Assembly: GCF_026151205.1 (NCBI RefSeq)
Contig: NC_087072.1
Location: forward strand, 22,275,603 to 22,339,602
Direction: 5' to 3'
DNA: 64,000 nucleotides
Source of the DNA: Bolinopsis microptera
Taxonomy: Eukaryota; Ctenophora; Tentaculata; Lobata; Bolinopsidae
The translations under genes were made by a program, and so were the position numbers. This document shows positions 91 to 63,585 of this stretch, piece by piece (the stretch's first letter is position 1; each line of letters starts with the position of its first letter). The notes beneath the pieces were generated by a model. The model was not told the DNA's origin, searched no databases, and saw only the letters and a list, made by a program, of their open reading frames with translations.

Positions 91-257
91 AGTTTGATCT
101 TTATGTTTGAATGACTTAATATTCACTTTCGATAGCCACAAAAGTGTAATAAATTAGTGAAGGAGTGATATGATCAAGTCATGGAACATTGCTCTAAATT
201 ATTACAAATTTGTGACTATCGAAGGTAAATGTTTTATCATTTAAGCATAAAGACCAA
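91..257 (+). repeat. Imperfect inverted repeat immediately upstream of the ADAR start codon
   Basis: Bases about 91-155 and 195-257 are reverse complements of each other over roughly 60 bases at about 80 percent, separated by a loop of about 40 bases. The right arm ends directly at the ATG. In the ADAR-proximal part most differences are G-U wobbles or A-C mismatches, so an RNA would still pair. If it lies in the mRNA it would form a dsRNA stem in the 5' leader of a dsRNA-editing enzyme. It could instead be a miniature transposon, and the transcription start is unknown. Confidence 0.75.
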
Positions 258-10662: not shown

Positions 10663-11000
10663 TGTGTTTTATAATATTTTGTGGTCGTTTGAATGTGTTT
10701 TTACGTAATGATTTCTATTTTATTTAATATCATACATATATAGACTTTCACAACTCGCTTTAATTTATTGTAATCCCTACATGTACGTGTTTCACTGCGA
10801 TTTAACAATTTTCTGCGATCTGTTATTCAACTCATTGAAATTTGTTTCAAAATATACTTAATTTTTGACGAATGTCTTCTCTTAAAATGTGACCCGGTTA
10901 TTGACATATGGAATTACTCTAGTCAATCCAAGTTTGACTGTCATTTTTATTCCTACTCACTTTCTATCGTTTATTCAGACTCAATCTCTATTTTCAAGGC

Positions 11001-12203
11001 ATGCCAGTCGCGGGCCGAGGTAGAGGAAAGTTCGTCCCAGCTAAGGGAAAAGGAAAACTCTTCGCTGGCGGTGTTGGAAACATCACTACTCGCGACGCTC
11101 CTCCTGCTAACAACAATAATAACGGTTTCGGAAACGGAAACGCAGGCGGAGGATGGGGCAATAGCAACAGTGCTGCGCCATCTACTGATGCCTGGGGCAA
11201 TGTTCACAACGATTCTAACACTGACAGATTTGCCGACTCCGGTAAAGAAGTCGAACTTCAGTTCAATGTTTATAATTCTAATTTAGCTAGGATAATTGGT
11301 AAAGGGGGCTCAAACATTCAAGACATTATGGCTCAATCTTCAGCGAGTATCGATATCAATAAGCGCGATTCTGATGGCAATATAACACCTGTAGTGATAA
11401 AGGGTTCTCAACTTAATTGTGATCATGCTAAGAAAATGATCGATGAGATTTGTACTAAATTCAATGGTCTATGCGAGGGCGCTGGAGGCACTACATCTAG
11501 CGGTGGTGGTGGCGGTTTTGGAGGCATGGCAAGCAGTGGAGATGATGGTCCAAGAGAAGATGAGGATATCTGGATACCTGAAGACAAATGTGGTCGTGTT
11601 ATTGGCCGGGGAGGCTCTAAAATCCAGGAGATACAAGATGAAAGTGGTTCAAATGTTAAGGTTCATGGCCGAGAAACAGCAGAAGACGGAAAAGTCATGG
11701 TAACTTTATCAGGAAGCCCTGCGCAACGTGCTAAAGCAAAAGAAATTATTGAGAAGTGTACTGCCGACCGCGGTGGTGGTGGTGGTGGCGGTGGCGGGTT
11801 CAACATGCCTGCTGATGCTGAACCACTCGAAATGTGGGTCGAGAGTTGTCGACTGGGCAGAGTGGTCGGAAAAGGTGGTAGTAAAATAAGGGAAATTCAA
11901 GATCAGTTCAGTGTTCGGGTAGACATACAAAAAGACCAGATGAAAGATGATGATACGATGGTAATACTAACAGGGTCACCATCTAGTACTCAGCAAGCAA
12001 AGGATTACATCGATGAACTGTGTGAGAGGAGTTCTAAACCTGATTTTGATTCAGGTGGTGGTGGAGGAGGAGGAGGAGGGGACTCGTGGGGACAGACAAA
12101 CACTGGGAGCACTGATGCAGGCTGGGGCCAAACCACTTCAAATACGGAATCAGGAGGCCTGGGGTGCACCAGCAGCGCCTGCTCCAGCTGCTGGTGGAGG
12201 TGA
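11001..12203 (+). CDS. Three-KH-domain RNA-binding protein with Gly/Trp-rich linkers
   Basis: A 400-residue frame in one exon; an acceptor-like site at 10979 suggests an intron in the 5' leader. The N-terminus is RG- and N/G-rich with the motif WGN..DRF, shared with the DDX43-like gene downstream. Three type I KH domains carry intact GxxG loops: IIGKGGSNIQ (about residue 95), VIGRGGSKIQ (about 200) and VVGKGGSKIRE (about 288). Poly-Gly spacers separate them. KH domains bind single-stranded RNA or DNA. The C-terminus reads into a Cys/Ser/Trp tail in this frame. The +1 frame continues the expected Gly/Trp-rich tail to 12240 (GWGQVSGDPAW), so a one-base insertion near 12155-12165 is likely, either real or an assembly error. 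Its 3' part is duplicated downstream. Confidence 0.85.
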   Translation: MPVAGRGRGKFVPAKGKGKLFAGGVGNITTRDAPPANNNNNGFGNGNAGGGWGNSNSAAPSTDAWGNVHNDSNTDRFADSGKEVELQFNVYNSNLARIIGKGGSNIQDIMAQSSASIDINKRDSDGNITPVVIKGSQLNCDHAKKMIDEICTKFNGLCEGAGGTTSSGGGGGFGGMASSGDDGPREDEDIWIPEDKCGRVIGRGGSKIQEIQDESGSNVKVHGRETAEDGKVMVTLSGSPAQRAKAKEIIEKCTADRGGGGGGGGGFNMPADAEPLEMWVESCRLGRVVGKGGSKIREIQDQFSVRVDIQKDQMKDDDTMVILTGSPSSTQQAKDYIDELCERSSKPDFDSGGGGGGGGGDSWGQTNTGSTDAGWGQTTSNTESGGLGCTSSACSSCWWR

Positions 12204-12969
12204 TGGCTGGGGACAAGTTTCAGGGGACCCGGCTTGGTGAAACAATTTCTTTATTTACCCTGTTTGTTAATCGTTATCTTCTAAAGCACGTTCTAAGGGT
12301 TCGCTAAGAACACCAAGCGTTAAGACTGAACCTGCGATTCAGCCCCTCTAATTTATTCAGAATATGCATTGTTTGATGAAATACGTTTTTTATTGTTTTT
12401 TTTTTAGTTTCCTTCCCCTTGATTGATCAACCATTGTTAACAGATCGTAGTTGTGTTTTTACAACTGAACTGTCACGTGAAGTGTGAATTGTCATTTCAA
12501 ACAAGTTATTTATAATATAACTTAAAAGAGTTATAAGTTAAATATTTTAACATTTTTGGATAAAAAGTGGTAGTCGATTTTTAAATATTTTTAATCTTTA
12601 AATCGGAATAAGGTGATTGGTTTCTTCAATCATATGTCTTGGTCTTTGTGGATTGAAATGGGGATTTATGAATTTATCTCGCCTGAAACAGTTGTGTAAC
12701 GAAGAGTAAAGAATATTGTCTATGTCCATTCTTATTTGAACTCTTCGATCGAAAGCTTGATTTATAGTGTAAAAGAATCTATGCATGTATGTTATTACCA
12801 AAATTATTTCAATCAAATTTTAATTCAATACTTTTTAATTACAAAATTGTGTGACTCTTGCGTCGAATTAGTACTTGTATTTGTGATAAATTCGGATTTT
12901 AACCATTTGCCACATCTTATGATTTGAATTATTTAAAAATTCTAGATATAATGCTGAATTCTAACTACA

Positions 12970-13509
12970 ATGTCTTCAGCCCCAGGTATGTCTAGAGAAC
13001 AAGAATCAGATGGCAGTCCAGTCGCCAAGGACAAAATATCAGTCCCTTCAAACAAGGTCGGCAAGATCATCGGCCGCCGAGGTGCCATGATTCGTGAGCT
13101 CCAGGACAAGTCAGGATGTAAGATAGACGTTACTGACGAACAGGTGGAGGGGCAAACGGTCATCAGACTGTCTGGTGCTGTGGAAGATATCGAGAAAGCC
13201 AAAGTCCTGCTGGCCAGGATCTACCAAGACGACTCGAGATCCAACCAGCAAGGACAAGAAGGTGAGCCGACTGAGCAGTTTGATATTCCCGAGGACAAGT
13301 GTGGCCTGGTTATCGGATCACGAGGATCTAAGATCCGGGAGATTCAGTCCGACACTGGAGTTGGAGTTAACGTTGGGTCGAGAGACACAGCAGTTGGTGG
13401 TATGATCAAGGTCACCCTTAGGGGAGACAAGGGAGGGTGTGATGAAGCAAAAAAGATTATTATGGAACTGATCTCCGATTCTGACAAAAGGACGGAAAGG
13501 TCATGGTAA
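12970..13509 (+). CDS. Truncated chimeric two-KH-domain protein
   Basis: The 179-residue frame is a close copy of the first two KH domains of the gene at 14262 (IIGRRGAMIRELQDKSG, then VIGSRGSKIREIQSDTG). It stops at RTERSW. From about 13490 the DNA switches to a decayed copy of the KH2 end, KH3 and 3' UTR of the gene at 11001 (for example QFSVRVDIQ at about 13575), with stops and deletions. It is therefore the junction product of a tandem duplication. It may still yield a short KH protein, since both GxxG loops are intact, or may be a pseudogene. Confidence 0.7.
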   Translation: MSSAPGMSREQESDGSPVAKDKISVPSNKVGKIIGRRGAMIRELQDKSGCKIDVTDEQVEGQTVIRLSGAVEDIEKAKVLLARIYQDDSRSNQQGQEGEPTEQFDIPEDKCGLVIGSRGSKIREIQSDTGVGVNVGSRDTAVGGMIKVTLRGDKGGCDEAKKIIMELISDSDKRTERSW

Positions 13510-13760
13510 GGGTGTTGAAGTTGACAGGGCAGATTGGTAGGAAAAGGTGGGAGTTAAGGGAAATTGAAGAGCAGTTCAGTGTTCGGGTAGACATACAAAA
13601 TGATCAGATATAAAATGACGATTCCATGGTAACTTTAACAGGGACACCATCCGACACTCCGCAAGCAAAGGATTACATCGTTGATCCTTGTAAGAGGAGT
13701 TTACAACCCGATTAATTTATTCAGAATGCAATGTTTGATAAAAGACATTTTTATTGTTTT
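13495..13760 (+). pseudogene. Decayed duplicate of the 3' end of the upstream three-KH gene
   Basis: Recognisable by GGACGGAAAGGTCATGG, by the KH3 segment coding QFSVRVDIQ, by the region coding QAKDYI, and by 3' UTR similarity (TTATTCAGAAT...ATGTTTGAT). Compared with 11690-12400 it has lost the poly-Gly linkers and carries an in-frame stop near 13610. Confidence 0.8.
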
Positions 13761-14261
13761 TTATTTGCTTCCCTTTGATTGATCTACCCTTATTTACCGA
13801 ATGTATTTGTGTTTTTACAGCTTATTTTGCCCGTGAAATGTTAATTTTCATTTCAATAAGGTAATTTATCATATTTAAGAGCGAAAAATTTGATTTAATT
13901 TTTAAGTAAAAAGTGGAATTCGATTTGATAAGCTGGTCTTTTGTCTTTTCGTAAGAGAGTAGTTTCTTGAATCATTTTCTATTATTTGGCCTTTACGTGA
14001 AATCAGGATTTGTGAATTTGTCCCCCCGGAACGAATATTTAAGGTCCATCGGTAATTCGCACTGTTCAACTGAAAGCTGAAATATATGTATTTCAATCAA
14101 ATTTTGATTTAATACTTTTTAATCACTTGAATTGTTTCATTCGTGTACCTTGAAAGTTATGATTGTATGTCAATTCGTATATCAGCCATTCGCTATTTGT
14201 TTTATCATCTCAATTATCTTCAAATTCTTGATTTTGAATTCATTATGCGTACCTAACTATC

Positions 14262-15881
14262 ATGTCTTTAGCCCCAGGTATGGCTCGAGGCAGGGAACCG
14301 GAGTCGACAGATGGCAGTCCAGTTGCCAAGGACAAAATATCTGTCCCTGCGAACAAGGTCGGCAAGATCATCGGCCGACGAGGTGCCATGATCCGGGAGC
14401 TCCAGGACAAGTCGGGAGCAACGATCGACGTAACTGACGAACAGGAGGAAGGGAGAACAGTCATTAGGCTGTCCGGAGCACTGGAAGATATCGAGAAAGC
14501 CAAAACTCTGTTGGCTCGAATCTACCAGGATGAACCGAGATCCCCACAGAAGTCAGGAGATGGTGATGCAACAGAGGAGTTCGAAATACCCGAAGATAAG
14601 TGTGGTTTGGTCATCGGTTCTCGAGGATCTAAGATCCGGGAGATTCAGTCTGACACAGGAGTTGGAGTAAATGTTGGATCGAGAGATACAGCAGTTAATG
14701 GTTTGATCAAGGTAACTCTGAAGGGAGACAAGGAAAAGTGTGACCACGCTAAGAAGATTATTTTGGATCTGATCTCTGATGCTGACAACGGTCGTGAGGA
14801 TGTGGAGCCAGCTTACTCCACTAACATGACCATCCCTCTTGACATGACCAGGAAACTGATCGGGCCCCAAGGTTCCACCATTAGGGACATCCAGGACAGG
14901 TCAGGCGCCCAGGTTGATGTCGCTAGGAGGAACACCGCTGTAGATGGTATGATCGAGGTCACCCTTTCTGGAGCCAAGGAAAGCTGCGAGTCTGCAAAGG
15001 ACATGATCAGCAGTTTGGTAGAGGAATCAAGTCACCCAGCCGAGACTGTGCTCATGATGATTGAGGAGTCCATGTGCGGTCTGATCATTGGAGCTAGAGG
15101 AGCCAAAATCAGGAGTATTCAGGACAACTCTGGAGCTAGTATCAGAATCGACAAGAGGAACGAGGCACGTGACGGAAAGGTACAGGTGACCATCACTGGA
15201 TCAGCCAACCAGTGTGTTGATGCCAAGGAGGAGATCGAGCACATCATCAGTGAGGGTGGCAGCAAAGAGTCCAAATCTCGAAGTTTCGATGCGAGTGAAC
15301 ACGTAATCGAGATCTACGTTCCAGAGTCTAGATGTGGTATGATCATCGGACGAGGAGGCTCCAAGATCGCCGAGATCCAGGAGAGAACCAGCACACGTGT
15401 TGATGTTAACTCTCGGGAGCGAGACGAGCGTGGTATGTGCCTAGTCACCATCTCCGGAGATGAGGAGAACTGCAAGGAGGCTGAAGCCATCGTGCAAGGA
15501 ATTGTTGACGAGGAAGAGAGAGAACGTGGTGACCGAGGTGACCGAGGTGAACGTGGTGAACGTGGAGACCGTGGTGGTCGAGGAGGTCGTGGGGAAGGTG
15601 GAGAACGTAGAGAACGCGGAGAGCGTGGAGATGGAGAAGACAGGGGACCTCCAATTGAACGTGGTTCTATGGATATCTGGGTTGAGACGTCATCTCTGGG
15701 CCGTATCATCGGTAAAGGAGGTGCCAAGATTAGGGAGATCGAGCGCATGCACGGTGTGAAGATCGACGTTAAGAAGGATGTCAAAGAGGAGAATGAGACG
15801 AAGGTGATTCTCATAGGAGCCAAGGAGGAGGTTCTGAGTGCAAGAGATTACATCTATGACATTGTCGATGAAGAGGTGTGA
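14262..15881 (+). CDS. Six-KH-domain RNA-binding protein with RGD/RGG-like region
   Basis: A 539-residue single-exon frame. Six type I KH domains start at about residues 22, 100, 180, 260, 345 and 465, with loops GRRG, GSRG, GPQG, GARG, GRGG and GKGG. Five keep basic or small loop residues typical of RNA contact; the third, GPQG, is less basic. Between KH5 and KH6 lies an Arg/Gly/Asp/Glu-rich stretch of about 50 residues (ERGDRGGRGGRG). The multi-KH layout recalls vigilin-, FUBP- or PCBP-type proteins but is not an exact match to any I know. Upstream DNA resembles the upstream DNA of the gene at 12970, consistent with tandem duplication. An AATAAA follows at 15991. Confidence 0.88.
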   Translation: MSLAPGMARGREPESTDGSPVAKDKISVPANKVGKIIGRRGAMIRELQDKSGATIDVTDEQEEGRTVIRLSGALEDIEKAKTLLARIYQDEPRSPQKSGDGDATEEFEIPEDKCGLVIGSRGSKIREIQSDTGVGVNVGSRDTAVNGLIKVTLKGDKEKCDHAKKIILDLISDADNGREDVEPAYSTNMTIPLDMTRKLIGPQGSTIRDIQDRSGAQVDVARRNTAVDGMIEVTLSGAKESCESAKDMISSLVEESSHPAETVLMMIEESMCGLIIGARGAKIRSIQDNSGASIRIDKRNEARDGKVQVTITGSANQCVDAKEEIEHIISEGGSKESKSRSFDASEHVIEIYVPESRCGMIIGRGGSKIAEIQERTSTRVDVNSRERDERGMCLVTISGDEENCKEAEAIVQGIVDEEERERGDRGDRGERGERGDRGGRGGRGEGGERRERGERGDGEDRGPPIERGSMDIWVETSSLGRIIGKGGAKIREIERMHGVKIDVKKDVKEENETKVILIGAKEEVLSARDYIYDIVDEEV

Positions 15882-15990
15882 AATATGGGCTTATAATCAG
15901 GGGTTTTGCTAGAAATTATCATACTATAGTTTGTAGTTTTTGATTTTCTACAGTCTTCAATTACTGTCTTCAGGTTTTCCATAAAAAAAT

Positions 15991-15996
15991 AATAAA
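15991..15996 (+). terminator. Candidate polyadenylation signal of the six-KH gene
   Basis: AATAAA 110 bases downstream of the stop codon, in an A-rich context. Position fits a short 3' UTR. Confidence 0.55.
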
Positions 15997-16952
15997 GTAA
16001 GCTTGAATTTTTTGAAAATGTTGATCATAATGATTTGACCTTGGCCCTTTCATATACTGCCTGGTTTATTTTCGTGCTCACGTTGCTATCGACTTACTAG
16101 AGTTTATAGTATTTGAAATTTTATACTTTGCGATTGTTAGATGAAGTTTGTCTTTGAAAATGTAGATTAGGTCGAACTGTTTAGTTGTAACATATGAATA
16201 TACCTTTGCTTCAAAGTTCAAAACGAAATGATGTCTATACTCTATAGCGATAATATTACTTGATCTGACTATTGATTGGTATTCTGCGTTCTGTAAAAGT
16301 TTGTCAAAATATAGGTTAAACTTTTGTATGGCATTTGATTAAATCATTATTTTATTCTTTTGGAAGGTTTTTAAGTATTTATTCAGTTTAAACACATATC
16401 CCAGAGCCGGCATCTCTTTTATATGATATTTGGTTGAGGTTCCATCATTCTCAACTTTTTCAGAAAACAGGCAACAAATGATTTTAATTGATCTCCGTCA
16501 TTGCAGCGCACACAAATTTGAAAACAGAGGGGTAGCTTAAACACTGGTATCATACAGTGATATAAAATATTATACTTAATTTATTACTTCTACAACGTCT
16601 TGCCTCAGTCATCGCTTGACATGAGTATTTATTTCAATTTTAGTTTGAAACTTGGTACTGTGCACGGGAAAATACTTTCATTTCTAAACACAATATATTA
16701 CATGTAAAGTTATGTATTTTCATTGCGATCAAAGTTCAGCTTAAAATATCTAGTGTTTTCATTATATTCAAAGATTGTCCTGCAGAACAAATCTGACTAA
16801 TCATAATTTGATTCGCTTTATTCTCATGACATCGTTGCCATGACCTATTTTGACTGGCAAGTAAAATTAAGCGCGTGTGATCATTCGGTTTCAATACGTT
16901 TAGTTGTTCTTTTAACTATTAACCCCTGTTCAAAGCTCAGGTCTTGATCCAG
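15997..16952 (+). other. Intergenic region, promoter and leader of the DDX43-like gene
   Basis: AT-rich, no gene visible. A pyrimidine-poor but plausible acceptor (AGCTCAG at 16934-16940) just before the ATG at 16953 suggests that the 5' leader is spliced, as also seems so for the three-KH gene. Confidence 0.45.
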
Positions 16953-19900
16953 ATGGCGACCAGACCGCGAGGTTTTGGTCGGGGTCGAGGAAAGCGAATA
17001 AAGGACCCAAACGCCCCTCCTGGCACCCTCTTTTCAACACCACCTCCACTCTCCAAATCAGAGATAGATCAGAATCTTGAGAGAATCAACAATCTTCAGA
17101 GTAGCTACAGTGCGCAACCGTCCCATTTTACATCACCAAATGCGAGAGCAACGAACGGTAATAGTAGTAGTAGTTACGGAAACAGAGATAATATTCATAA
17201 CAATCCGAATGGTTGGGGTAATCCCAACGCTCACATGGACAGATTCATTGATCATGACACTGCCAACCCTCCACAAGATAGCTCAGATTGCTCAGAGACA
17301 ATGCGGGTACAGTGTCACAGAGTAGGCCGTATTATTGGGAGCCGTGGAGCCACAATAAACAGTATCCAAGATCAGTCGGGCGCTAAGATTGATATCGCAC
17401 GAGATGAGGTTGGTGATGAGAAAGAGGTAACTATCACTGGGTCACGTGACAGTGTCTCCAAAGCTAGAGAACTGATAAGTGAGATTCTTGGTGATGAGTC
17501 TGGCGGAGGTGGCAGATCGGGCAGGCCCTCTAACAATGATCCATCAGGAGGCTCTGTAGTTATCAGAGTTGCTGAAAACTCAGTGGGTCGCATTATTGGT
17601 AAATCCGGTGCCACTATCAATGAAATACGAGATGAGAGTGGTGCGACTATTGATATAGGTAAAGAGTCGTCAGGTTATGAGAAGGAGGTGACTCTGCGGG
17701 GACCTCCAGCTGCAATCGCAAAAGCAAGAGATCTCATCAGCAATATCGTGGCTATTATTGACGATGAGGAACCTCGGAGCACAGGTGTTATTGATTATAA
17801 TAAAACTATTGACTGGGGTCAGATTGCTGCCAACGAGGAAGCGTATAGGTTTGAGAAATGGGGCAGCCTCCCTCCTGTTCAGAAGAAGTTCTACACAGAG
17901 GACCCCCAAATATCCAGCTTATCAGAGGCACAAGTCCTGGAGATCCGAGCTAATAACATGGCAATAGAGGTGTCTCACTACGTACGAGAGCAAGACAAGG
18001 ATAACCCAGCCGCTTACCCTCCCATCGCTAAACCTATCCTAACATTTGAACACTGTTTTCAGAGATATCCTGATATTTTGAAAGAGATTTACAAACAGGG
18101 GTTCAAGGAGCCCAGCCCAATTCAGAAGCAAATGTGGCCTGTTCTGTTGTCTGGGCACGACTGTATCGGTGTTGCTCAGACGGGAACAGGGAAAACTCTA
18201 GCTTTTCTTCTCCCTGCTTTTATTCATATTGAGGCCCAGCCGAAACCTAGATCACAAAGAAAGGGTCCCACTGTCTTCTGTCTGGCTCCTACTAGAGAGT
18301 TGGCACTCCAGATTAAATGGGAGGTGAGTGATCGTTAATATTCATTTATTCTAGGATAAACTCTAATCAGATTCCACTGTTATTTAATTTCCTTGCATGA
18401 CATTGATCAAGTTAAAAAACTCCCTTTAAACTAGAATTTAATCATTGACTCGTTGTTCACAAAGTTCCTCCCGCAGGTAGATAAGTACACCTACCACGGT
18501 ATAAGTTCTGCATGTGTATACGGAGGAGGGAGTCGTTCAGAGCAAATACAGATGATAAAATCAGGAGTTGACATAGTAGTTGCCACACCGGGCAGGCTGA
18601 ACGACCTGATCGAGTCTAAACTTCTTATTCTGGACGAGTGTTCTTATCTTATCCTGGATGAGGCTGATAGGATGCTTGACATGGGCTTTGAACCTCAGAT
18701 CAAGAAGGTAAGAGAACTTTTAAAAATATACATAATGAGGAAGGGGGTCTAATTTATTTTTGTCTGATGAAGTGATAATTGAAATTGCTTCACTTACAGG
18801 TAATTTTTGCTGGGATGAAAAGTATCAAGGTCTACATATTTTTATCATCAATTTAATGTCGTCAGCAATCCAATAAAAGTATCTTATGTCTCTGACCCCA
18901 GGTGTTGTTAGATATCAGACCCGACCGTCACACAGTGATGACGTCAGCAACATGGCCCCCCGGCGTCAGACGTATTGCTCACGAGTACATGAACAACAGT
19001 ATCATTGTCAATGTTGGCACTCTAGATCTCAAGGCAGCGGTCACAGTCACTCAGCACATTGTGATGACTACCCTCGAGGAGAAACTGAATTTGTTGCAGG
19101 TTACCACTTGTTCGTTTTTAATTTGTGGGGGGGGGGGGGTCCAACTACATTTTTGTACATGGCCACCAGATTTTTACCAAATGTACATGTACAAAAATGT
19201 AAAAAATATGTTTTTTCCTGTTTGGCCACCAGATTTTTGCCAAATGTACATGAACAAAAAAATGTACAAAATATGTTTTTTCCTGTTCCGTTTCCAGGGA
19301 TTTCCGATTTTTGTACATTTTTTATGACCATTAATGTACATGGCCATCAGATTTTTGCCAAATGTACGCTAAATTAGTGTACAAAAATGTAGTTGGACCC
19401 CCCCCCCCCCCCCCCCCATTTGTTTCGGGTTTTGAGGTCATCTTTTCCTGCTTAATTGTTATTAGGACTTGTTTCCAAACTCCTGCTCCGACCAGATTAT
19501 TGCTGGTTAGGATCCTTAATGTTTGGTAGATAAACAGTGTCCGTTTGAGGGTTCTATTTTCTGTAGATCGAACTCATAGAGGGTACATGCATTTTATTTG
19601 TTGTAGTGATATCTGTCAGAATTACATTGGCAATAATCTAAAACTTGTTGCAGTATCTTCCATATCTTTGGACTAGGACTAATAAGATATATCGTATTTC
19701 AGGAGCTAATAGAAACACAGTTGGATCACCACCATGACAAGTGTCTTGTGTTCGTGGGGAGAAAGATAACTGCTGACTTCATATCAAGCGAATTTATCAC
19801 GAGGTTAGATTGAATAATTATTAACTTGAAGTTTCTGCCACAAGGCATTTGAAATAGGCTAGTTTTAAATTTAAACTCACAGACGCAAACTTTTAGAAAT

Positions 19901-24393: not shown

Positions 24394-27300
24394 ATGGATC
24401 CTTCAGAAGAAATCATTGATGAATACTTTGAATACTTAGCAGATAGAGATGTCTACAGGTTTGAAACTGTTTACTACTTGTTGATTAGTATAGTAATTCA
24501 TGCCTTAACAGTCTATTGATTCTACATTGATTCTAGTTCTTTGGCATCTGCTTTTATAAACAGTAACTAAAATATAATGTTATAGGGCTCCGACTGTTCT
24601 ATCCTGGCTAACAGATTACATAGATACAAAGAATGAAAACGCAGTAAGTTTTGAAAAACTGAATAATAAGAAGAACAAATATCAAATTATCACACATAAT
24701 AGTAATTGTAAGTAACAAAAGTACAGATCACCAATTGATTCAATTGTTCATGCTTCGCAGTTAAAAAGCAACCAAAGTTGTTCATCAAAATATTTGATTT
24801 AATGACAAAAATTCAAGAAAAAAAATCAATCAAAGAGTATAATTATATTGTATGTTTAATCTTGAAGATTACACCAAATGGGCATTATATTTTATGAATT
24901 GTTTTACATCTTTTTATTCTGTAAAATGTGCTAAAATTAAATTTCTTGTTTCATTGAATTTCTTGTTTCATTGATTATGAATCACTAGTTTCAAAAAGTA
25001 ATACAATTTTATTTTCAGATATACAAATTGCTTCAACACAGTTTGGCTAGTGAAGCTGTAGCAGGCCTTGTCGACCTACTTGAATTCGATGATAAGAGGT
25101 GAGCCATTACAATTGGTGCATATGGTTAGTACATTATTGAATGAATTTAAAAATACTTCTTGAATTACATCAAATTGTTCGAATCACCTATGACCGAACC
25201 TAAAATTGATATCTTCTTCAATTATTCATTTTCTGATTTCTAAAATATGTTTAAGAAGCTCACTTGCCAGGGGTCTTTCTGCAGGATCATACATCAAGCA
25301 TATCGTCAAAACTTCTTGTAAATCAGCCCCAACAAATTGTGGAATTTCAGGAATTTTCTTACTTCTTGCTAGCTTCCACATGTATTTAAATGGCTCATCA
25401 TTCATGAATGGAGGTTCATTGTAGATCATTTCCAGCATGGTGATCCCTAAACTCCACACGTCAACAGGAAAGCCACACTCTTCAGTGTTCATCACCTCAG
25501 GGGCGCGCCAATAAGCATTACCAACATCGGGCGTATAATCCCCAGCAGTTCGCACAACTGCCTCTAGTTTCTTCGACAGTCCAAAGTCGGCAAGTTTGGC
25601 CGTCTCCGTTGAGGATATCAACACGTTCGGAGACCGAAGATCACGATGGACGATCTTTTGTTGATGAAGATACTCCAGCCCACATGCCATTTCCAAAGTA
25701 AACTTCAATATTAATCGTTCCGGTAACACTGGCCGGGTTTGTTGATCAGTTACAGTCAGCTGTCTTGCTTGGATCTCCAGCTTGCTTTTCAGTGACCCTA
25801 GCAGCATGTACTCCTGGATAATGTACCAGTTGCTCTGTTCCAAACCTACACACCCCACGTACTGAACTATGTTGTTGTGGCTCGTCAGCTGACTGTTGAT
25901 ATTTATCTGAAATTAATGTCAGTTAGATTAAATTGATACATTTTGTACCGTGAAATAACTTAAAATATTACTTGTAAGGCGATAGTGTCACTGTCAAGTG
26001 CCATTGTAAACATGGCAGAGAACAAAATTTTAAACTGAGAAAAACACCCACCTCCTTTTTGACGTCTTCAATGGTACTTCTAACCCGTCCATGAGCTACA
26101 AGTTGGATGTGTTTCAAGGCCACTGAACAACCAATAAGTTCATCTGTGTACTTGTAAACTTTACCGTAGTAACCTCCCCCAATAGAAGGCATTCTCATAG
26201 GGTTGAGAAGTTGTGTTACCGGGATTGAGATGGTGGGGATAGAAGGAATGTGGTTCAGAGGAAGTCTGATGGCCTCTCCTGTCACCGGCTCAGCCACATC
26301 TACTGAGGTGTACACAGTGATGGAAATTGTCCGGTTGAATGTCACTGAAGTAGGTCTAGGCGGCCCAACTTGTGGTCTTCTGGGTTGTGGTGATCGGTGG
26401 ACTGGTCTAATGGTGGCTTGTTCAACATCATCTGCTTGCTGAATGGTCAGGTTCCTGGATACACTGACTTTGTTGGTAAAGACCACTGTTTCGGTTAGCG
26501 TCTGGAAAACTGTTCTTTGTACCGACTTTGAGTTTACCACGAAGATAACCGGGTTGTATGCCGCTAGCAGTGACTGCATTAAAACATCAGCTGCAAACAA
26601 CAGATAGGTCATGTTATAAGGCAACCCTGGATTGCCATGGTCCCGGAAATTGGTTGCAAAGTCTATAAAGTCTGTGACTAAATCTTTGACAAGCGATAGA
26701 ATTAAGCAAAAGCAATTCCCAAGTATGAGCAGACACATACTAAAACACAACCTCTTTAGATTGTGGGATCGTAGTATGTCCATCTTGACAAGGTTTACCC
26801 ACCCAACTACAGCAAAGAAGATGTGGAAAAATAATAGGAGTGACTTTGATCCGAACAGAATCCATTTTTGGGCCTGGAAGTTCATGGAGCTGTTTTTAGC
26901 ACGGTAGACGTCAAGTTGAATTGGACTGAACCAAAAATAGTCGTTTTTGTTAAAATCAATTCCTGTTGTACTGAACATTTCTAAGGCAAATACCATTGTG
27001 AATAGAACAATTGTTATCACGAAGAAAGCCACTCTCGCACGATATCTGAGATTTGGTCCGTAAATCATTCTGTTGATAGTGTAGCCCAGGACGTTGGCGT
27101 AATTCAGCACAGATACAACAAAAGTTAGTATCAGGGACACCATGAACAGTCCAAACATGATAATATTGAAAATATCAAGAATTCTTTCATGTTTAGAACA
27201 ACTGCAACTGCACAATTCCTCTTGTTCGTCTCTCAGCAAAACAACAGCTATGTAGATGGATCTGGCGTTGTAGAGCAAGTCCGCGATAGCTCTGATAACA

Positions 27301-30300
27301 GTTATATACTGTCTTGCTAGGAACTCTGAGAAGGGAGCTGATTGGCTCTTGCTGTAGTAGAGAAACACACTGAAGTTACCCAGAACTGAGACCAGAGCTG
27401 CGACTACAAGCACACAGGCTAGAGCAGTGTTCATAACGCTGTCAAACTCTGTTCCGATGTGAAGTTCAAAGTTACAGTTGGAGATAGCAGAGGGGTCAGA
27501 TGCGTTGTTATCTCCGAAAATAGTCATTTTTAAAGAAAGGGGCGGCTACTCGAGAGTATAGAACGAAATGGACTGTTGAGAACGGAGAATGAGAACTTTA
27601 ATAACACATGTGATCACAGTGTCATGGTAATTTGACCTCAAAAAGGTGACTTTTGTTATGCGATATCTGCATTACATTGAAGACTTGATGGTTGCTTACT
27701 CGTGAGCACAATATTATCACCTTCAATATCACATTACTTCAATGAACCATATTCTTAACCTGAGTAGGGACTAGGGAGACTAAAATACTTTTTCTAAAAT
27801 TTACGAATTTTTTAGTGTTTTCTCTGTGATAAATAAATTGACATCATGGTGTGAGATTATATCAATTCTAAAGAATCAGGTACTGATTCTGCAGCTGCTA
27901 CACCTGATTTTGCACCTGCTGCACCTGCTGCACCTGCTGCACCTGCTGCACCTGATTCTGTACCTGCTGCACCTGATTTGCACCTGCTGCACCTGATTCT
28001 GCACCTGATTCTGCACCTGCTGCACCTGATTCTGCACATGCTGCACCTGATTCTGCACATGCTGCACCTGATTCTGCACCTGCTGCACCTGCTGCACCTG
28101 ATTCTGCACCTGCTGCATGACTTCACATTGTAGCAGTCCGCCACAATATAACTCCAGAGTGCTAGCTAATTATCAAATTGACAGATCTTCATACTGTTTT
28201 TCTACCTTGAAAGACTATGAGTCCGTTAAATAGAGATGTTGTCTAATTTTGGATGTTATTGGCAGCAAATCCCAATCTGTAAATATATAATACATTATAG
28301 GCTCACCTCTAGAGAATAATTACATATACGTATAAGATAATCATCCGCTCTATCCGTAATTACAGCCGCTATAAGTTCAAAGTGGCAAATGACAGTGTAT
28401 GCTCGATGGTAACCAAGATATTGTTGTTGTTTATCAGCATGCTTGATGGGTCGGCATATGAACACTGAACAGGGGATAATCACCTGCAGTAAAGTTCACT
28501 TTACCCTAAAGTCATTGCTGCTAGACCATTTTTATGATGTTGGATAGTAATTTCCAGGCCGTTGGGAGAAATGAGTCTGTAATCTTAAGAATTTCCGTAG
28601 TCCTGCAGTCAGAGCTATATTAAGTAGAGGGTAGCTCAGTTGCTACATTTTGTAACTCTTTAGGAAGAGTCTTCTGTGAATTTACGGTAATTATTTTTAC
28701 TTAGTCCTTGCTGAAAACGATTAGGTGCATGCTTATCAGGAGACTGAAAAGTGAGAGACAATTTTCAGGAAGATCTGTACTTTTCTAGAGTATGCAAAAC
28801 TGTTTGTCGTTTTCCTTGCTCATTAAGTTTGAATCGCAATGCTCAATGCACCGTTTAAGTATCCTAAAGCAAGGTCTTCATCATACGAATTAAAGTGAGT
28901 TTGTTAAGGTATAAGTAAATGAATAATTATATTATGTTGATAATTAAATGTTAATAATAATATATTATGATACTTACAATGGCTATTATTATATTTACGG
29001 TGAGCCGACAGAGGCAGCAAATGTATCAGGGCGTCCTAGTGGCGCCTTTAGCGGCATCTGTTGACACAAATTGCGACATTTTCGTCATCAGGTTCATAAC
29101 AGATTTCAGTCTTGATGGCGTTATTTGCTTCATCGGTACCACTTTAGTTTACGCCCATGTTTCATGGGAGAGAATGTTGATGATAATAATACAATATTGT
29201 TTGTTTTTGAACTTTTTACGTAAAGATATCATAGTTTAATTCACAACATAATGAACAGCATTTTTGGAGTTTTCACTGGGTCCGGGAAAATGTAAAATAT
29301 TGAGGCGCTTTTTTAAAACATTAGCCAAATGTGCCACAAAGTTGCTAATTACAACTGAAATTCGCTGTAATAATTATGCAGAGACATCTGTGGGTTTATT
29401 CCTTATCATATTATGTATCATATCTAATGTGCCGTAGAGGCAGCTCCAAGACAGGTAACCGATAGCTAATGTACTAAGCCACCTGCTGTTGAAAGTAATC
29501 TCTTCCTCATTCTGTTGGTACATTTTTTGTGTTAAATGGAGCCAAACTTAGTATCATATTGCAGGCTTTACTAAAAGCTACATTCTGAAATATATCTCCC
29601 TAAAAATAGGAGCCTTAAAAACAGGGGCCCTAAAAACAGGGGCCCTAAAAGTTAGCCCTCCAAATTAGCCCTCCAATAGCTCCTAAATAACTATAATTGT
29701 AGATCATTTCCTCCTCCTCCTCCTGGTTTGTTCGCTCAGCCCCTTGTAATATATCACTAGGCAACGCTGAGAACTGCAGGAGTTGTGCTAGCGTTGCTAG
29801 GCAACATCACTTATCCCTAAGTTTACCGCTCCACCCCTAAAGAGATAATGTTTTTGGGTTAGGACGATGACACGTAAATATTTGTGATATTGTGCCAGAT
29901 ATTTGAGATATCCTGACCGGAATTCTACCAATTTTGTTGTATGCACAGTGGAAGGCATGTAATGGATTCATGTTACTCCAATATGATGTCATGAGCTGTA
30001 CAGTGTGTATTAAATCGTGCAGATAAGAAGTATTCTGTAACTGTGTACATGAACTAATGATGAACCAGAGGTTGTTGTATGTGATATACGTAAGAAGTAT
30101 TCTGTAACTGTGTATATGAACTAATGATGAACCAGAGCTTGTTGTATGTGATATGAGTAAGAAGTATACTGTAACTGTGAACTAATGATGAACCAGAGCT
30201 TGTTGTATGTTATATGAGTAATCGAATCATAAAACAATGACGTTGAGGAAGGTGAATGTGATATTTACTGTTGACTGGTTCTGTCTTAAGCCCCTAATTC

Positions 30301-33300
30301 GTGTTGACTGTTTGGTCAGTAACATAATATGAACCGGAATTAATTCTGTATCCGAGATGGCAACTTGTGAAAATGTTAAGATGTTAAGTGTAGCGATAGA
30401 AACAAAACAGGATGTTACAGAGAGCTGTATGGCTTGTGAGAACTGCTCGGAGTAAGTTCCGACATAGTAGTAGTAATGTAGTTTGTAATAGAAAGTTGGC
30501 CCATTAATAATACTGTTGCCATTTGTCCGCTACTGAGATATTTGATATTGACATTATTATTATTATGATAATGTGACATTATGCCTGAAAAATATTGTCG
30601 AAAATGTCGTAGATAAGTTAAATGGTTCGTAAATAATCCTTTTATATCCTTAGCTCGTTTAGAACAAAATTTGTTATCGGTTTTGATCTTTATTTATCGT
30701 TATTATCCTTATTAGACCTCTTTGAAGATTAAATACCAGGCATGACTATTTCAAAGAGATTCTCCGAAGTCTAGCCCAATAGGTTAATATGCTCTTAAAA
30801 AATACAGCACAAAAATATAATGATATAAACCCAAAAACTTCCTAGATGGCAGCAAGTAAGATTGTTCCTAACTCCCTTCTTCAGGTTAACAGAGTCTGTG
30901 GTGCACATTCTGGGGACTATAGTGGAGCACCCCAGATGTAGACAGTACGTGTTGGAAGTGCCCCGGAACACTGCTACCTCCGGACAGACTAATCCCACCT
31001 TGTTTACTGCGCTCGTTAACATGCTCATGTCGGATGATAAGAATGTGGTTATGAACGCTGCGGGCACTATCGCTAATATCGTACGTTACTTCTTCAGCTA
31101 ATAATACTCTTTAACAGTTTATTCTTTGTTTATATTTGCTATCAGATATAATTCATAATGGAATATTGATCGTAAACGGATTTTGTGAACGCTAGATGTA
31201 CTAAATTAAAAAATATAATTTCACTGATCATTTTTCGCGCTAATTGAAAACCCACCACACGTCAGCTGTACGGAAGATAATGACATAAGCACCTGTTAAA
31301 CGATACTGCCCACAAATATATGATATCATCTAATAGTTCGTTAGTCACAGAGCTAGATTGATGCTCAATTGCACCCATAATGACACCAATTCTGTGGATA
31401 TATCATAAAATAAGAGTAAATTGAGTTCAGAAATCCCAATTTAATAGCATAATGAGCACCTCTATTTTACTGGTACTCAATGCACTCTCTAAACTAGCGG
31501 CGTGACCACAGAAGAAGATAAGATGGGTTATGAGGTGAACAGTTTTCTGTTCCATGTTGCCCAGGTTTATTCACTTGTAATGGTGTTCTAGCTTCACAGT
31601 TCACACGTGATATAGACTATAATACCATATTCTGTTAACCACCAGTTCACCACTGTAAACCATTAGATATTAATGATAACTGTTTCTTAGTTTTCTAACC
31701 TACCATTCTAATTCGGTGCTGCCTCGACCTATTCAAGTTAGAGCGCTGTATTAAATAAAGTAAATGCACTCAATAAGATCACTTTGAGGATTGACATGTA
31801 CTGTATTTAGTTTGATTGTCCTCTAATATCTCGACACTTAGTAACCATGGTAACACAATAAGTACTCTCCAGTTTTCAGTTTGAAATGCACTCGAATTAG
31901 AAACAGAATGCCCAAGTTACAGCTCTTTAGAGAGAGAGAGAGAACAGAGTAAGATTAAAGGTACCGCCATATTTATGTGCATTTTACCGTGCACATATCA
32001 TAAAGACGACCAACTCGAATTTGCAACATCTTTGATCTCAAAATGAATCACTACCAGTCCACAGGCAGACATAAAAGTAGATAGTTTGGTAAAAATAGTG
32101 ATAAAGTATGCTTACCATCGGACAGTTTAAACTATTTGTTCTCACACGAAAGCTTTGATGTGCCACAATATTCACGATTCTAACTTCAAACTTTAGTATT
32201 TAAACTTTTTCTACGGTCTTTCTTACTGTGAAAGGCATCTCACATGTTATCATATGTGCGACAAGATCTTTTAACGAAGGCGGAATAATTGATGAATTTG
32301 TTTATTATCTTATACAGTCGCTAAGACTGAAGAGGTTGATCTGGGCTTTAAAATTAAGTAAAGTTTAAATAATGTGAATTGTGAACCCCACCTTTTACTT
32401 GCATGACATCCTCCGTTTAAAAGCTCGCAAAAGCTCGATTATTCTATAATTTTGAAAAACTTCTTACTCCGATCTTCGGTGACTTTTTCTGGTTAACATT
32501 ATAGTCAATATGACTCCCTAAAAACCGCATTTAATCTAATTTGTTACAATGTTTCAAAATATATGCATAGTTTTACCAAATTTGCTACCGCAGAATATTT
32601 CGGTTAGCAAGCTTTGATGCTTAGTTGTTTTAATGCACGCCATTATTTGTTGAATGCGGAGAAGTGGTGCCGCCACAGTAACATGGTCCAGCCTTTCTTA
32701 CTGTGGTCTGAGAAAGTCTTGGTCTAATTTTATAAAACAATTTTGTTCAATTTTGACCGGGAAAATTACTTATTCAACCGTAGTTATATAGTTTTGAAAA
32801 CTGTCATATATGGCAGTAACAGAAGGACTGTCACTGCAAATGCCATATTCAGCTACTCGCTAAATCATAGAAATAAAAAGATTGCATTTTAACTGACAAA
32901 AGAATAGACACTTTTATACTTAACGCACAATGGAAGATGACAATTACAATAAAATGATCGAGAGAGTGGCAAGCAACGATTTAACGAATCGGTCAAGCTA
33001 TAGAAAGAGTTTTATTCATACTTATCATTTTATTAAGTCTACATTTAACAAGTCCACTTACTTCATTACAATTGATTGGAAGCTAAAATCAGTCTAACAA
33101 TTGGCCTGGTTGAACAGCTTACTTCTTAATATACCTCTTCACTATCTCAGGCCGAATCGTGTGATGGGCGCCTGTGGATACTACAACAAGCTGTATTCGA
33201 CGATGCTCTGCCAATATTGGGCGTTTTAACTGTAGATCCCCACCAATGGGCTGCTAGCAATTCTGCTCTTGTTTTAGCAAGGTAAACTGTAGTTCGAGTT

Positions 33301-41178: not shown

Positions 41179-44100
41179 CCCGTTTCAGACACCCGAGAGA
41201 TCATCAGGCCGAAAAAGAAATCAGATCGTTTCACTACTAACAAGAAGCAAACCTCCAATGATGACAAAAAATCGACATTACCTCGAAAACCTGCACCAGA
41301 AGACAACCTAAAGAAAGGATTGTCGACGATTGAAGAGGTATCCTCGACAATCACCCTTGATACCTCTCCACCGAGCTCTGCTGCCCCAATGGGGATATCC
41401 GAGGTTGTTGTTACTAAAACCAAGGTCCCACCCAACACCTCGGAAAGCTCGCTCTCGTCAGTTCAACAAAGTACTTCATCCATCAAACCAGGTGAAAAAC
41501 CAGACCCCAGATCTCTGGCTGCCAAATCCTTGTCCGCTCTTGTGCCTCCAAGTAAATCTGTAACGTTTGATGATAATGTTCGGGTTAATACTGCAGAGAC
41601 AGGTTCTCTGATAAACCCAGAAGAAACTCAATCTGTGTATGTTCCAAATGTTGTGACCGCTCGGGTGAAATCTTTTGACCCCGAGATTGTGGCTGAAACC
41701 TCTGATACTGCTATTTCTCTTGATAACGATAACCATAAAGATTCAGTAAACTTTCTTGTTGATTATGTGACGTCGTATGAAGCTAAGCCTGAAGGTGGCG
41801 AAGCTGTTGTAACTTCATCGTCTCAAAACAAATGTGATGTGAAACCTGACGAGAATTTGTCGCAATATTTCGCGAGCAAAACATATAACCACGCCTTATT
41901 AAATCTAGAAGACTCGGTGCAGGAAGACTCTGGGACTGGGCTGGTTGCTGAGTACCAGGTTTCCCAGCCGGATGTGCCTGGAACTGAAAATAATGAGGAT
42001 GCTAAAACGGAGTCGAAATCTCTTGACGCTGACTCGAAATCATCAGATACCACTTCGTATACTTCCTTTTCGAGTGAATCAAATCAAAAGATGGGAATTA
42101 CTTCACTCTCCTCCATTGGTTCGATCGACACGACCTCTCAGTCGGAATCGACGACCTCACTCAACGTCAAAACAACTCAAGATAATGATCCACCAAGCTC
42201 ACCCCATAAGAATATCACCGTTTTAGACCCGTCATCACATGACAAACCATCTCATGGTCACCCTGCTGTTACATCACATGATAACACTCCTCAAACATCT
42301 GATCGAATCTTACTACTTCAATCCCAAGTCAGCAGGACATTGACCACCAAATTAAAAATCAACCACTTCAAAAGCATCCCTCTCAAGTTCAATTTTCACT
42401 CGATTGCATTCCTGAACATCTTGGTCCTCAAAATCAGCGCCTAGCAAACCAGGCCTATCAAGATCAGCCACCAGAAAAAGAGGCCCCACAAAATATTCCT
42501 CAAAAAGTTGTCGCTGAAGAACTTATTCCTCAAGTTCAGCTCTCATTTGATAACGTAAACCTACCCAAAGGCTCCGGTCCTCAAAAGCCAGCTCATAAAG
42601 ATACTAACTCTGTTGCTCGCAAGTCTCACGGAACAAGAACCACTTCTAAACAGAACGAACCCCAAGATCAAACCTACAAAGATCGTCCGAGACGACCGCG
42701 TCATGACAGCGATGAGACGAATCCTATCCGCTCTCTTAATGACATCCTCCTCTTCGACTCGGACCCCAGGTGAGACTTAACCTTATAGACAATCGAGTAT
42801 GTTACCTATAAATACCAGGAAAGTCCTTTAAACAGTTAAACATCACTCTTAAACACTCGCATTTATGTACCGTAAATGTAATTGCAATATTTTATCGTCA
42901 AAAGGATATGTTGACCCAACAGTTGAGTAACTATTGTTTAAACAGGGAAGGTGTCCCAGTATTTAGTTAATTAATGAGCCCCTGCGTTGTTGATAGGAAG
43001 CTTCTGTTGGACTTGGACCAGATTTATACCACTATTACTGGTGCTCACTGCTCGGTTAATTTAGCTACATGATGACTGATAAGATTCCTTTTCACAAACT
43101 GCAGTATCTCTGATGTCGGCCAGACTTGATTCTAAATTAAAGAGAATAATTTAGATTATTGCTTGTTGTTTGACTTTAAGTAAATGGGATTTTGAGCTTA
43201 ATGGCATTAATATAACGTCATGCATGAATGGAATGATTTTAAAGCCTCTAAATACTTTTGATGTCTAGAATAACGCTGGAACCGGGGAGCCTCCCAAACT
43301 GCACTCAGTACAAAATATTCATTCTTTTTCTTCTGAATTTGTTTTAGTTTTTTGTTGAAACCGTTTTATTGAACTTTATTTGGTAATCAATCATGTTATT
43401 ACCAATCTTCAGGAATTCTACAAGCAATGAAATGACTGCTGAAGAGAATGATCACACCCAGGTAAATACCCATCTTGGTGTCTGAACTGTAACTCACTAA
43501 AACCTTAGTTCTTAGTAATGAAGTTTTGTTAATATTCTGTAAGTACCATTACATATCACCTCAGAGTCAAGCTCACAATTACAAACACAATTACAAGAGT
43601 CACCGCAAACGTTTCAACATAGACGACGAGGTAGGGAACTGAGGGTAAACCTCCAACTGAGGGTAAACCTCCAACTGAGGGTAAACCTCCAACTGAGAGT
43701 TAACCTCCAACTGAGGGTAAACCTCCAACTGAGGGTAAACTTCCAACTGAGGGTAAACCTCCAACTGAGAGTTAACCTCCAACTGAGGGTAAACCTCGAA
43801 CTGAGGGTAAACCTCCAACTGAGAGTTAACCTCCAACTGAGGGTAAACCTCCAACTGAGGGTAAACCTCCAACTGAGAGTTAACCTCCAACTGAGGGTAA
43901 ACCTCCAACTGAGGGTAAACTTCCAACTGAGGGTAAACCTCCAACTGAGGGTAAACCTCCAACTGAGGGTAAACCTCCAACTGGGAGTTAACCTCCAACT
44001 GAGGGTTAACCTCCAACTGAGGGTAAACCTCCAACTGAGGGTAAACCTCCAACTGAGGGTAAACCTCCAACTGAGGGTAAACTTCCAACTGAGGGTAAAC

Positions 44101-45330
44101 CTCCAACTGAGGGTTAACTTCCAACTGAGGGTAAACCTCCAACTGAGGGTAAACCTCCAACTGGGAGTTAACTTCCAACTGAGGGTAAACCTCCAACTGA
44201 GGGTTAACCTCCAACTGAGGGTAAACCTCCAACTGAGGGTAAACCTCCAACTGGGAGTTAACCTCCAACTGGGAGTTAACCTCCAACTGAGGGTAAACTT
44301 CCAACTGAGGGTAAACCTCCAACTGCACGAGAATAATATTTAAAATAGGAAAATGATTGTTAAAATAATTGGTCGTGATTAAAATTTAGTGTTTGGTGTA
44401 AAACCCATGACACACGTTCAGCGTAAGAAGGATGACGGTGTGGATGAGCAGAACAAGCTGATAACAGCTCTCATAGCCCAGCAAAACAACGATTTTGAAG
44501 TGCAGAACAAACGGACCAAACAACTGATAAGCACTGTTCGGAACAATATCAAGAGTTAGTTAAAAACTCTTTCATCTTTTAAAATCATTAGTAATTCTGA
44601 TGAAATCAGTATACACGCGTTTAATTACTGTACTAGGTTCTACATCATTAATCTCCGAACAATTTCAGACGCTATTCAGTCAAACCGTGATGTCGGACCA
44701 AATCGTCAGGTATTCATTTGCCAATTTTTGTTTCTTAATCTAGAAGCTTGGGTTAAATTCTTGAATATAAAAACTTTTTTGAGATACAGTTAGATTAAGA
44801 TCTGTATGTTCCCAATCCGAATTGACTGTTGATATATTTAAACTCGCTCCTACTAAATCGCTCGCCCAAATTTTAAGAAAATTCTTGTGATAAGGCCCTT
44901 TGGGTATGAAATACATGTAAGCTAAAGCAGCTGTTTCACTTTCAGTTATCATCAAGTAACAAGTTTATTAGCGCAGTAAACCAAACTAGACGACATATAA
45001 AGATGTCTAATGTTAACATGTTTGGGGAAATGACTAATTTTCCTTCGCACCAGCGGTGAGCATTCTATTATCTTGTTACGTTAGTAAACAACCATGAACG
45101 TAAAATTCATTACATCTATAATTGTTGTGCTGTGTAAAATAATGATATTAAATACAACATTAAAATCCACACATTTCAGACCGGTAGTAAATGTGCAACA
45201 AGCCAAGACCAGTCCAGTTCAAGGCAGAAGAAGACAGAGAAGGAAAAAGCAGCAGCAGCAACCGTTATCACCTGTCAACCGCCAAGGTCCTGCTACTGCA
45301 GAACTTCAGTTTCACTTTCCCAAACTCTGA
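41179..45330 (+). CDS. Large disordered Ser/Thr/Gln-rich protein, 5' end missing, one frameshift
   Basis: Exons: 41179-42769, 43413-43461, 43565-43630, 44422-44554, 44669-44709, 44946-45055, 45180-45330, phases consistent from exon 2 on. The first exon begins at an acceptor, so an upstream exon is needed; phase 0 would fit exon 17 of the ARM-FN3 gene but this is unproven. The protein is acidic and Ser/Thr/Pro/Gln-rich with basic patches. Near 42330 the frame ends with a stop at 42444. The -1 frame then continues with a Gln/Pro-rich stretch (DQPPEKEAPQNIPQK) to a proper donor at 42769, implying one missing base. Later exons are basic and helical (NKLITALIAQQNNDFEVQNK) and end with RRRQRRKKQQQQP, a possible nuclear signal. 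No domain is recognised. Confidence 0.6.
43637..44324 (+). repeat. 18-bp minisatellite, about 38 copies, next to a 5' splice site
   Basis: The unit GGTAAACCTCCAACTGAG, with a variant carrying AGTTAAC in place of GGTAAAC, fills most of the intron and begins only six bases after the donor of the exon ending at 43630. The common unit contains G|GTAAAC, a moderate 5' splice-site match. The antisense frame (Pro-Gln-Leu-Glu-Val) is a by-product. Confidence 0.95.
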
Positions 45331-63562: not shown

Positions 63563-63569
63563 AGTTGTT

Positions 63570-63585
63570 ACCTCAGTGTGATTAA
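63570..63585 (-). promoter_or_regulatory. Primer-binding region complementary to the element's own LTR
   Basis: On the element strand, TTAATCACACTGAGGT begins one base after the 5' LTR. It is the exact reverse complement of ACCTCAGTGTGATTAA inside the LTR (63621-63636). No tRNA-type TGG start is present. This fits self-priming by the mRNA 5' end, as established for Tf1-type elements. Confidence 0.7.

Follow-up and report, generated by a model that had tools for sequence, protein, structure and literature searches.

Fusions of a G-protein-coupled receptor (GPCR) with a C-terminal kinase are known from choanoflagellates, sponges, oomycetes and amoebozoans (PMC12716839). Fusions with tyrosine kinases (GPCR-TKs) have been described in sponges and fusions of the GPCR-TKL/K type in choanoflagellates, TKL standing for tyrosine kinase-like (PMC12716839, Garcia De Las Bayonas and King 2025). 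The sponge fusions were detected with tyrosine-kinase queries, and the authors argue that fusions of seven-transmembrane (7TM) receptors with kinases arose repeatedly (PMC12716839). The paper is inconsistent on one point, as its Discussion lists GPCR TKL/Ks among the new findings in metazoans and its section 26 names acanthoecids only (PMC12716839). The ctenophores Mnemiopsis leidyi and Bolinopsis microptera are among the proteomes of that study (PMC12716839). We found no ctenophore 7TM-kinase fusion in the literature, the coverage being without bioRxiv, most subscription papers and supplements. Here we describe one such gene in a 64,000-nucleotide stretch of the B. microptera genome (contig NC_087072.1, positions 22,275,603 to 22,339,602), hereafter called the window. 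Judged from the sequences of the genes, the fusion of receptor and kinase is real, conserved and encoded by a single gene in ctenophores, at the gene level. The initial annotation of this locus knew of no well-characterised animal example; this holds for function, but sponge GPCR-TK fusions have been described (PMC12716839).

The gene lies on the minus strand. Its previously proposed coordinates, strand and two-exon model stand, and splicing leaves 718 codons without interruption. Its parts, in window positions, are:

25226..27527, minus strand: receptor-kinase gene in two exons, with the ATG at 27527 and the stop codon ending at 25226.
26052..27527, minus strand: exon 1, with the start codon, extracellular N-terminus, seven transmembrane (TM) helices, helix 8, linker and kinase N-lobe as far as the alpha-C Glu (translation, AlphaFold2, relatives).
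25907..26051, minus strand: GT-AG intron of 145 nt in phase 0, within the kinase N-lobe, its junction apparently common to 7 of 8 exon-level relatives (frames continuing as ...KKEV).
25226..25906, minus strand: exon 2, with the remaining kinase domain (HRD, DFG, APE) and the stop codon (translation, Pfam, PDB matches).
26478..27527, minus strand: 7TM module with helix 8 (residues 1–350), a predicted divergent class-A GPCR fold (AlphaFold2; Foldseek and VIA; paralog bridge to Pfam 7tm_1).
27099..27107, minus strand: DRY-position motif at the end of TM3, Leu-Asn-Tyr (residues 141–143), with Asn in place of Arg (alignments).
26208..26339, minus strand: conserved juxtamembrane linker B, residues 397–440 (region identities, invariant residues).

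The spliced product has 718 residues followed by the stop, with 492 codons from exon 1 and 226 from exon 2. The intron is located directly after the kinase alpha-C glutamate. The reading frame of exon 1 (525 codons) extends to a stop within the intron, so the kinase depends on splicing. A single exon carries the 7TM part, the linker and the start of the kinase N-lobe. This agrees with the earlier claim that the intron splits the kinase itself and that both parts share one exon, the junction between them being within exon 1.

Exon 1 was searched against 5.8 billion proteins (E ≤ 0.001; ≈8,000 candidates sharing most words scored) and matched 10 proteins, nine of which cover 94–100% of the exon and one (P0009) 38%. 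A profile search with nine exon-1 sequences (E ≤ 0.1; 7,998 word-sharing candidates scored) gave the same 10 proteins and none further. The M. leidyi ortholog P0008 (ACHWQZ_G007576) has 712 residues with the full 7TM part and kinase, and is 66% identical. P0009 is the NCBI model of B. microptera itself (LOC134819340). It is 100% identical over its 38% of exon 1, and against the genome it is 100% identical over residues 187–413 and 98% over residues 1–191 (a few codons beyond the splice site). The eight further single-frame database proteins that share the fusion exon (40–96% identical) may come from fewer than eight species, P0003 closely resembling the window protein and P0007 closely resembling P0008. 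Seven of these eight frames continue past the splice junction (...VKKEV), so the intron position is apparently common. P0005 ends ahead of the junction, in what we take to be adaptor-like sequence. In a tree of the fusion proteins two groups are seen, P0010–P0012 and the rest. Since every relative includes the linker and, of the kinase, no less than the Gly loop, the fusion is older than this split. P0008 is almost the same as P0007; the two are told apart by a two-residue insertion and a short deletion, perhaps model or assembly errors.

By hydropathy analysis at a threshold of 1.3, the window protein has seven segments. Of the 7 relatives scanned, 4 likewise have seven, P0010 and P0011 six, and P0012 eight. 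At 1.6 five segments were left in the window protein, helices 2 and 7 falling below the cut. The AlphaFold2 model of residues 1–350 contains seven long helices (27–60, 67–98, 112–150, 158–185, 217–249, 255–284 and 304–332) and a helix 8 (334–349). The seven helices of the initial annotation are thereby recovered by hydropathy at 1.3 and by the model, the latter with moderate confidence. The GN and NPxxF-type motifs that it reported are likewise present, as N51 (GN motif), N325, P326 and F329 (NPxxF), together with D83, are invariant in all 10 rows of the fusion alignment (class-A position numbering, N1.50, D2.50 and N7.49-P7.50, set by eye). Structural matches of the 7TM model with Foldseek and VIA are, as we take them, class A GPCRs, bar one taste receptor per list. 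The window protein has no Cys from residue 111 to residue 260, so the usual disulphide between TM3 and extracellular loop 2 is absent. C18 and C106 are invariant among the fusion rows and might be a substitute disulphide pair. From alignments and the predicted structure, we consider that the 7TM part is a divergent class-A GPCR, tied to class A via kinase-less ctenophore paralogs.

One of these paralogs, P0131, was used as the query for the receptor family of the 7TM part and gave 105 matches in the genome (some genes give two). The Arg position of the DRY motif is Asn142 in 10 of 10 fusion rows. In an alignment of 24 sequences the same position is Arg in 18 of the 19 kinase-less rows, L033 having Gln, and the five fusion rows all have Asn. 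This alignment consists of 18 of the 21 loci given (L035–L054, the best 20 of the 105 matches, plus L033), the ordinary class-A receptor L034 and five fusion rows; L043, L046 and L047 were left out as shorter than 280 residues, and L035 is P0131 itself. The exchange of Arg for Asn suggests a switch from G proteins to direct phosphorylation. The bypass of G proteins through direct phosphorylation, as proposed in the initial annotation, appears more plausible with this Arg lost in every fusion row. The adjacent kinase-less receptors L031 and L032 (C9:7172357-7175077; loci are given by contig and position, the window contig being C1) have the exact start MTIFG of the fusion protein. The same start is seen in L037 and L050, and MGIFG in L033, forming a conserved N-terminal motif.

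The linker between the two domains consists of two rather different halves. Residues 357–396 are variable (14–21% identity in three distant relatives), whereas residues 397–440 keep 50–52% identity in these same three and 84% in three nearer relatives. The corresponding values for the kinase N-lobe are 55–57% and 67–77%. The earlier description of a Pro-rich linker is therefore too simple, as the second half is about as conserved as the kinase N-lobe. This suggests that residues 397–440, just ahead of the kinase, could be a regulatory juxtamembrane element.

The kinase motifs are IGGGYYGKV at 449, VALK at 469, the alpha-C Glu at 492, HRDLRSPN at 579, DFG at 599 and APE at 627. Every catalytic residue is present, i.e., the Gly loop glycines, the VAIK Lys, the alpha-C Glu, the HRD Asp and the Asn, the DFG Asp and the APE Glu. 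Exon 2 matches Pfam Pkinase with an E-value of 8.1e-44, and Pfam analysis of the fusion gave protein-kinase-type families and no PIPK. VALK, KKE, HRDLRSPN, DFG and APE are identical in P0009 (Bolinopsis) and P0008 (Mnemiopsis); in the Gly loop the glycines agree and other residues differ. The annotation of a complete kinase is confirmed by these motifs and the Pfam match, and by its sequence the kinase looks intact.

Among the 60 PDB rows shown for the kinase, the best matches were MAP3K2 (122 bits), MST3 (117) and PAK1 (110). No RAF-, MLK- or LRRK-type kinase is among these rows. In a tree of 29 domains the kinase joins the Mnemiopsis kinase and the genome's own L015 with support of 100/99. 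It falls outside a long-branched clade (83/91) that unites the TK- and RAF-like kinases of the genome with two further TKL-like ones (all classed by eye from motifs), and the tree gives it no firm place relative to the STE20 and MAP3K rows. By most measures, and on limited references, the kinase would be of an orphan STE-like type rather than TK or TKL. Of the two classes initially suggested, STE thus appears the better fit, on the PDB matches and the tree. Ser/Thr specificity is likely. L015 (C1:5914201-5915004), the nearest relative in the genome, is 35% identical and encoded by a single 348-codon frame, and no 7TM-like frame was found in the 9.9 kb examined around it. The fused kinase and L015 have HRDLR in place of HRDLK in common. 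L015 also carries HRDLRAAN and an unusual GNYLWCGPE segment.

In the genome searched (264.65 Mb in 232 contigs), exon 1 and the fused kinase were each found once as such. The positions of the 105 receptor matches were checked by eye against those of the 155 kinase matches that were listed. No second receptor-kinase fusion was found among the listed matches, where introns could hide one, and a scan of loci L031–L054 and L055–L058 with the window kinase revealed a kinase only in L055. Four receptor and kinase pairs are near each other. Those at C1:7045364 and C1:7049731 look like separate genes, the kinase frame starting with MGNKSSKS, and those at C5:7563724 and C5:7559470 were rejected as they lie on opposite strands. 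For C11:11065221 and C11:11076313, the kinase is in an 818-codon frame ≈10 kb downstream, outside the stretch examined. At C9:9589090 and C9:9603901, two unbroken receptor frames (345 and 343 codons) stop ≈11.6 kb short of the kinase exon, and a link via unseen exons is conceivable. The kinase relatives L029 (C1; ≈4.2 kb upstream examined), L071 (C8), L072 and L073 (C2) have no frame with at least five hydrophobic segments in the stretches examined.

The protein search with the kinase was evaluated for the best 120 of 2,986 matches. P0013–P0016, P0019 and P0030 were rejected as receptor fusions in spite of their promising scores, having 0–1 hydrophobic segments and, by eye, two kinase domains each. 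Of 130 proteins, only P0055 (four hydrophobic segments) has at least three outside the fusion family. A PDB search with one alignment profile (E 1e-15) gave no match, probably because the kinase columns drop out when exon-1 rows dominate. With a second alignment profile, the 60 of 154 rows shown were kinase N-lobe matches and contained no GPCR. Tandem arrays of 7TM receptors from the same broad family are found at C11:4452669-4474323 and C11:1641843-1693330, and no kinase was found in the array loci scanned.

Because the nearest relatives found so far for both halves lie in the ctenophore genome, one without a kinase and the other without a 7TM part in the stretch examined, the simplest reading looks to be that the fusion was made within ctenophores, as a further independent event. 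Retention from pre-animal ancestors, as the initial annotation had considered, is not borne out: the 7TM part belongs to the family of 105 matches, and the kinase groups with a ctenophore kinase for which the stretch examined shows no 7TM-like frame. The ctenophore fusion is set apart from those of sponges and choanoflagellates by published descriptions.

Several observations speak against parts of the overall interpretation given below. In the NCBI model P0009 the protein starts only at Met306, which lies in the loop ahead of helix 7, and helices 1–6 are missing. The frame upstream of Met306 is open and the preceding in-frame Met is residue 264, so the P0009 transcript probably begins or is spliced within codons 264–306. 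A shorter transcript may exist, and the start of P0009 could reflect either a real short transcript or thin RNA coverage. One of the refuting conditions named at the outset is thus half present. With TM7 only, P0009 would fail a seven-helix filter. Confidence in the AlphaFold2 model of the 7TM part is moderate (mean predicted local distance difference test, pLDDT, 63.9; predicted template modelling score, pTM, 0.64). The full-length model of the Mnemiopsis ortholog shows seven helices and helix 8, with the kinase not placed (mean pLDDT 42.7). None of the nine exon-1 proteins matches Pfam 7tm_1 directly, and the kinase-less P0131 does so with an E-value of 6.8e-4 and 19.6 bits, below the curated cut-off of 30.5. 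The PDB search with P0131 returned just two weak rows, with E-values of 3.5 and 6.2, each a chain of the delta opioid receptor.

The counts at the DRY position are subject to similar caution. The 18 Arg rows are interdependent, seven of them having an identical TM3 motif and six of these coming from one C11 tandem array, and loss of the DRY Arg alone is no proof of lost G-protein coupling. For the kinase, the 60 PDB rows include two tyrosine-kinase chains, 9p9u (EGFR, 106.9 bits) and 7t6f (101.4 bits), in neither of which does any single stretch pass alone. The kinase tree has few references, and its long branches meet in the TK/RAF-like clade. The STE references were picked from the top matches, so the comparison is biased towards STE. 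Finally, Ser/Thr kinases usually have a Lys after HRD; the fused kinase has Arg, which makes its specificity uncertain.

Taking these points together with the evidence above, we think that the gene rather probably encodes a single-copy, GPCR-based receptor kinase of ctenophores that signals by its kinase, with G-protein coupling probably weakened or lost. An extracellular ligand would shift the helices of the receptor, and this movement would reach the kinase by way of helix 8 and the conserved linker. Autophosphorylation would follow, along with phosphorylation of downstream proteins. Both would most probably occur on Ser/Thr, and the targets might include components of a MAP-kinase cascade, given that MAP3K2 and STE20-type kinases are the relatives closest to the kinase among solved structures. 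G-protein coupling would probably be weakened or lost because the DRY Arg of TM3 is Asn in all 10 fusion rows. As to its origin, one member of the large ctenophore GPCR family may have been joined to a kinase of a type already present in ctenophores, prior to the separation of the species represented here. That the protein is a class-A GPCR turned receptor Ser/Thr kinase within ctenophores, having gained a STE-like kinase at its tail and lost the G-protein-engaging Arg and now signalling by direct phosphorylation, the first such receptor of an animal outside sponges and independent in origin of the sponge and choanoflagellate fusions, has in our opinion a chance slightly short of even.

A different function would be that of a self-regulating GPCR, in which G-protein coupling is kept and the kinase phosphorylates the receptor's own loops or tail, or neighbouring GPCRs, so as to desensitise the receptor or recruit arrestin. 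The same has been proposed for oomycete GPCR-TKLs in two papers (PMC6033456, PMC5784254), and the retained NPxxF, D83 and N51 would fit with it. We nevertheless regard it as unlikely, as the G-protein-contacting Arg is Asn in 10/10 fusion rows and Arg in 18/19 kinase-less rows, and as no GRK is found among the 60 PDB rows shown, the best of which are MAP3K and STE20 types. The start of P0009 at Met306 despite an open upstream frame could also mean that there are two products: a predominant short protein of TM7 and kinase, made from an internal promoter, and a rare form with all seven helices. This we consider quite doubtful, since the full-length Mnemiopsis model and eight other proteins conserve the 7TM frame in its entirety, with invariant residues such as N51, D83 and NPxxF.

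An ancient fusion from pre-animal ancestors, homologous to those of choanoflagellates and sponges, would fit with the occurrence of this general layout in choanoflagellates, sponges, oomycetes and amoebozoans (PMC12716839). It appears very improbable, as the fusion-exon profile search (7,998 candidates scored) yielded only its own family of 10 proteins, of which P0008 and P0009 are from ctenophores. Moreover, the 7TM part falls in a receptor family of the same genome without another kinase found, and the kinase is outside the TK clade, whereas the sponge fusions are described as GPCR-TKs. The fusion is known here from gene sequence, and two genes wrongly joined or a decayed gene could in principle give the same picture. 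Such an artefact of annotation or assembly is hardly credible, given that the 7TM-kinase junction is within one exon, that splicing leaves 718 uninterrupted codons and that the architecture recurs in other sequences, the Mnemiopsis ortholog contradicting it.

GPCRs and receptor kinases are usually seen as separate animal sensing routes, and the ctenophore protein joins both. The kinase-less sister receptors in the same genome would offer a before-and-after test of how a GPCR is rewired from G proteins to phosphorylation, and ctenophores would be added to the animal lineages with GPCR-kinase fusions. If true, the combination of class-A descent, an STE-like kinase and loss of the DRY Arg is exceptional, and predicts a switch from G protein to phosphorylation.

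The receptor-kinase gene is nested in a gene of the opposite strand, within the region 24394-33282 (plus strand) of the window:

25099..30884, plus strand: intron of an armadillo-repeat gene, enclosing the whole receptor-kinase gene (flanking exons join in frame; Pfam Arm repeat).

The armadillo-repeat exons 25019-25098, 30885-31080 and 33151-33282 are in frame and have AG/GT sites. A short tandem repeat of the CTGCACCTG type is found at 27890-28125, ≈360 bases upstream of the receptor-kinase start codon. Elsewhere, the window contains a frame for an ADAR-type RNA editing deaminase that matches the double-stranded RNA binding motif twice (216-2345, plus strand) and a run of KH-type genes (10938-18338, plus strand). 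In the latter, frame 14238 has six KH matches and frame 16923 a KH match and a DEAD-box helicase start; frames 10938 and 12958 are KH-like by eye only. A long minisatellite at 43543-44385 has repeats readable on both strands (LQLRVN and QLEVYP types), and a Ty3/gypsy-like retroelement frame with protease, reverse transcriptase, RNase H and integrase matches is located at 59870-63610 (minus strand).

Among described systems, the GPCR-TKs of choanoflagellates and sponges share with the ctenophore protein an N-terminal 7TM part, a C-terminal kinase and an early-branching animal lineage. Their kinases are tyrosine kinases by BLAST in the paper, whereas the ctenophore kinase is STE-like (PMC12716839). 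The GPCR-TKL/Ks of acanthoecids also combine a 7TM part with a C-terminal non-tyrosine kinase and form a large family of which a part has kinases (92/176), but their 7TM parts cluster with no other GPCRs, whereas the ctenophore 7TM part is tied to class A (PMC12716839). Oomycete GPCR-TKLs have the same general design, thought to connect a GPCR directly to a catalytic domain. They differ in having a DEP domain (8/17 of those in P. infestans) and a TKL kinase, and belong to another lineage (PMC5784254). GPCR-PIPKs of the RpkA type likewise join a 7TM part to a catalytic C-terminal domain and are also retained in sponges (PMC12716839). They carry a lipid kinase and the linker motif LR(x)9GI, which is absent in 10/10 ctenophore fusion rows. 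Compared with class A (rhodopsin-family) GPCRs, the fusion protein has Asn for the DRY Arg, no Cys in 111–260, no direct 7tm_1 match and a kinase after the tail. The MAP3K and STE20-type kinases MAP3K2, MST3 and PAK1 are its best sequence matches among solved structures, from which the fused kinase differs in HRDLR for HRD[IL]K, in GN for GT before WxAPE and in the 7TM receptor attached to it.

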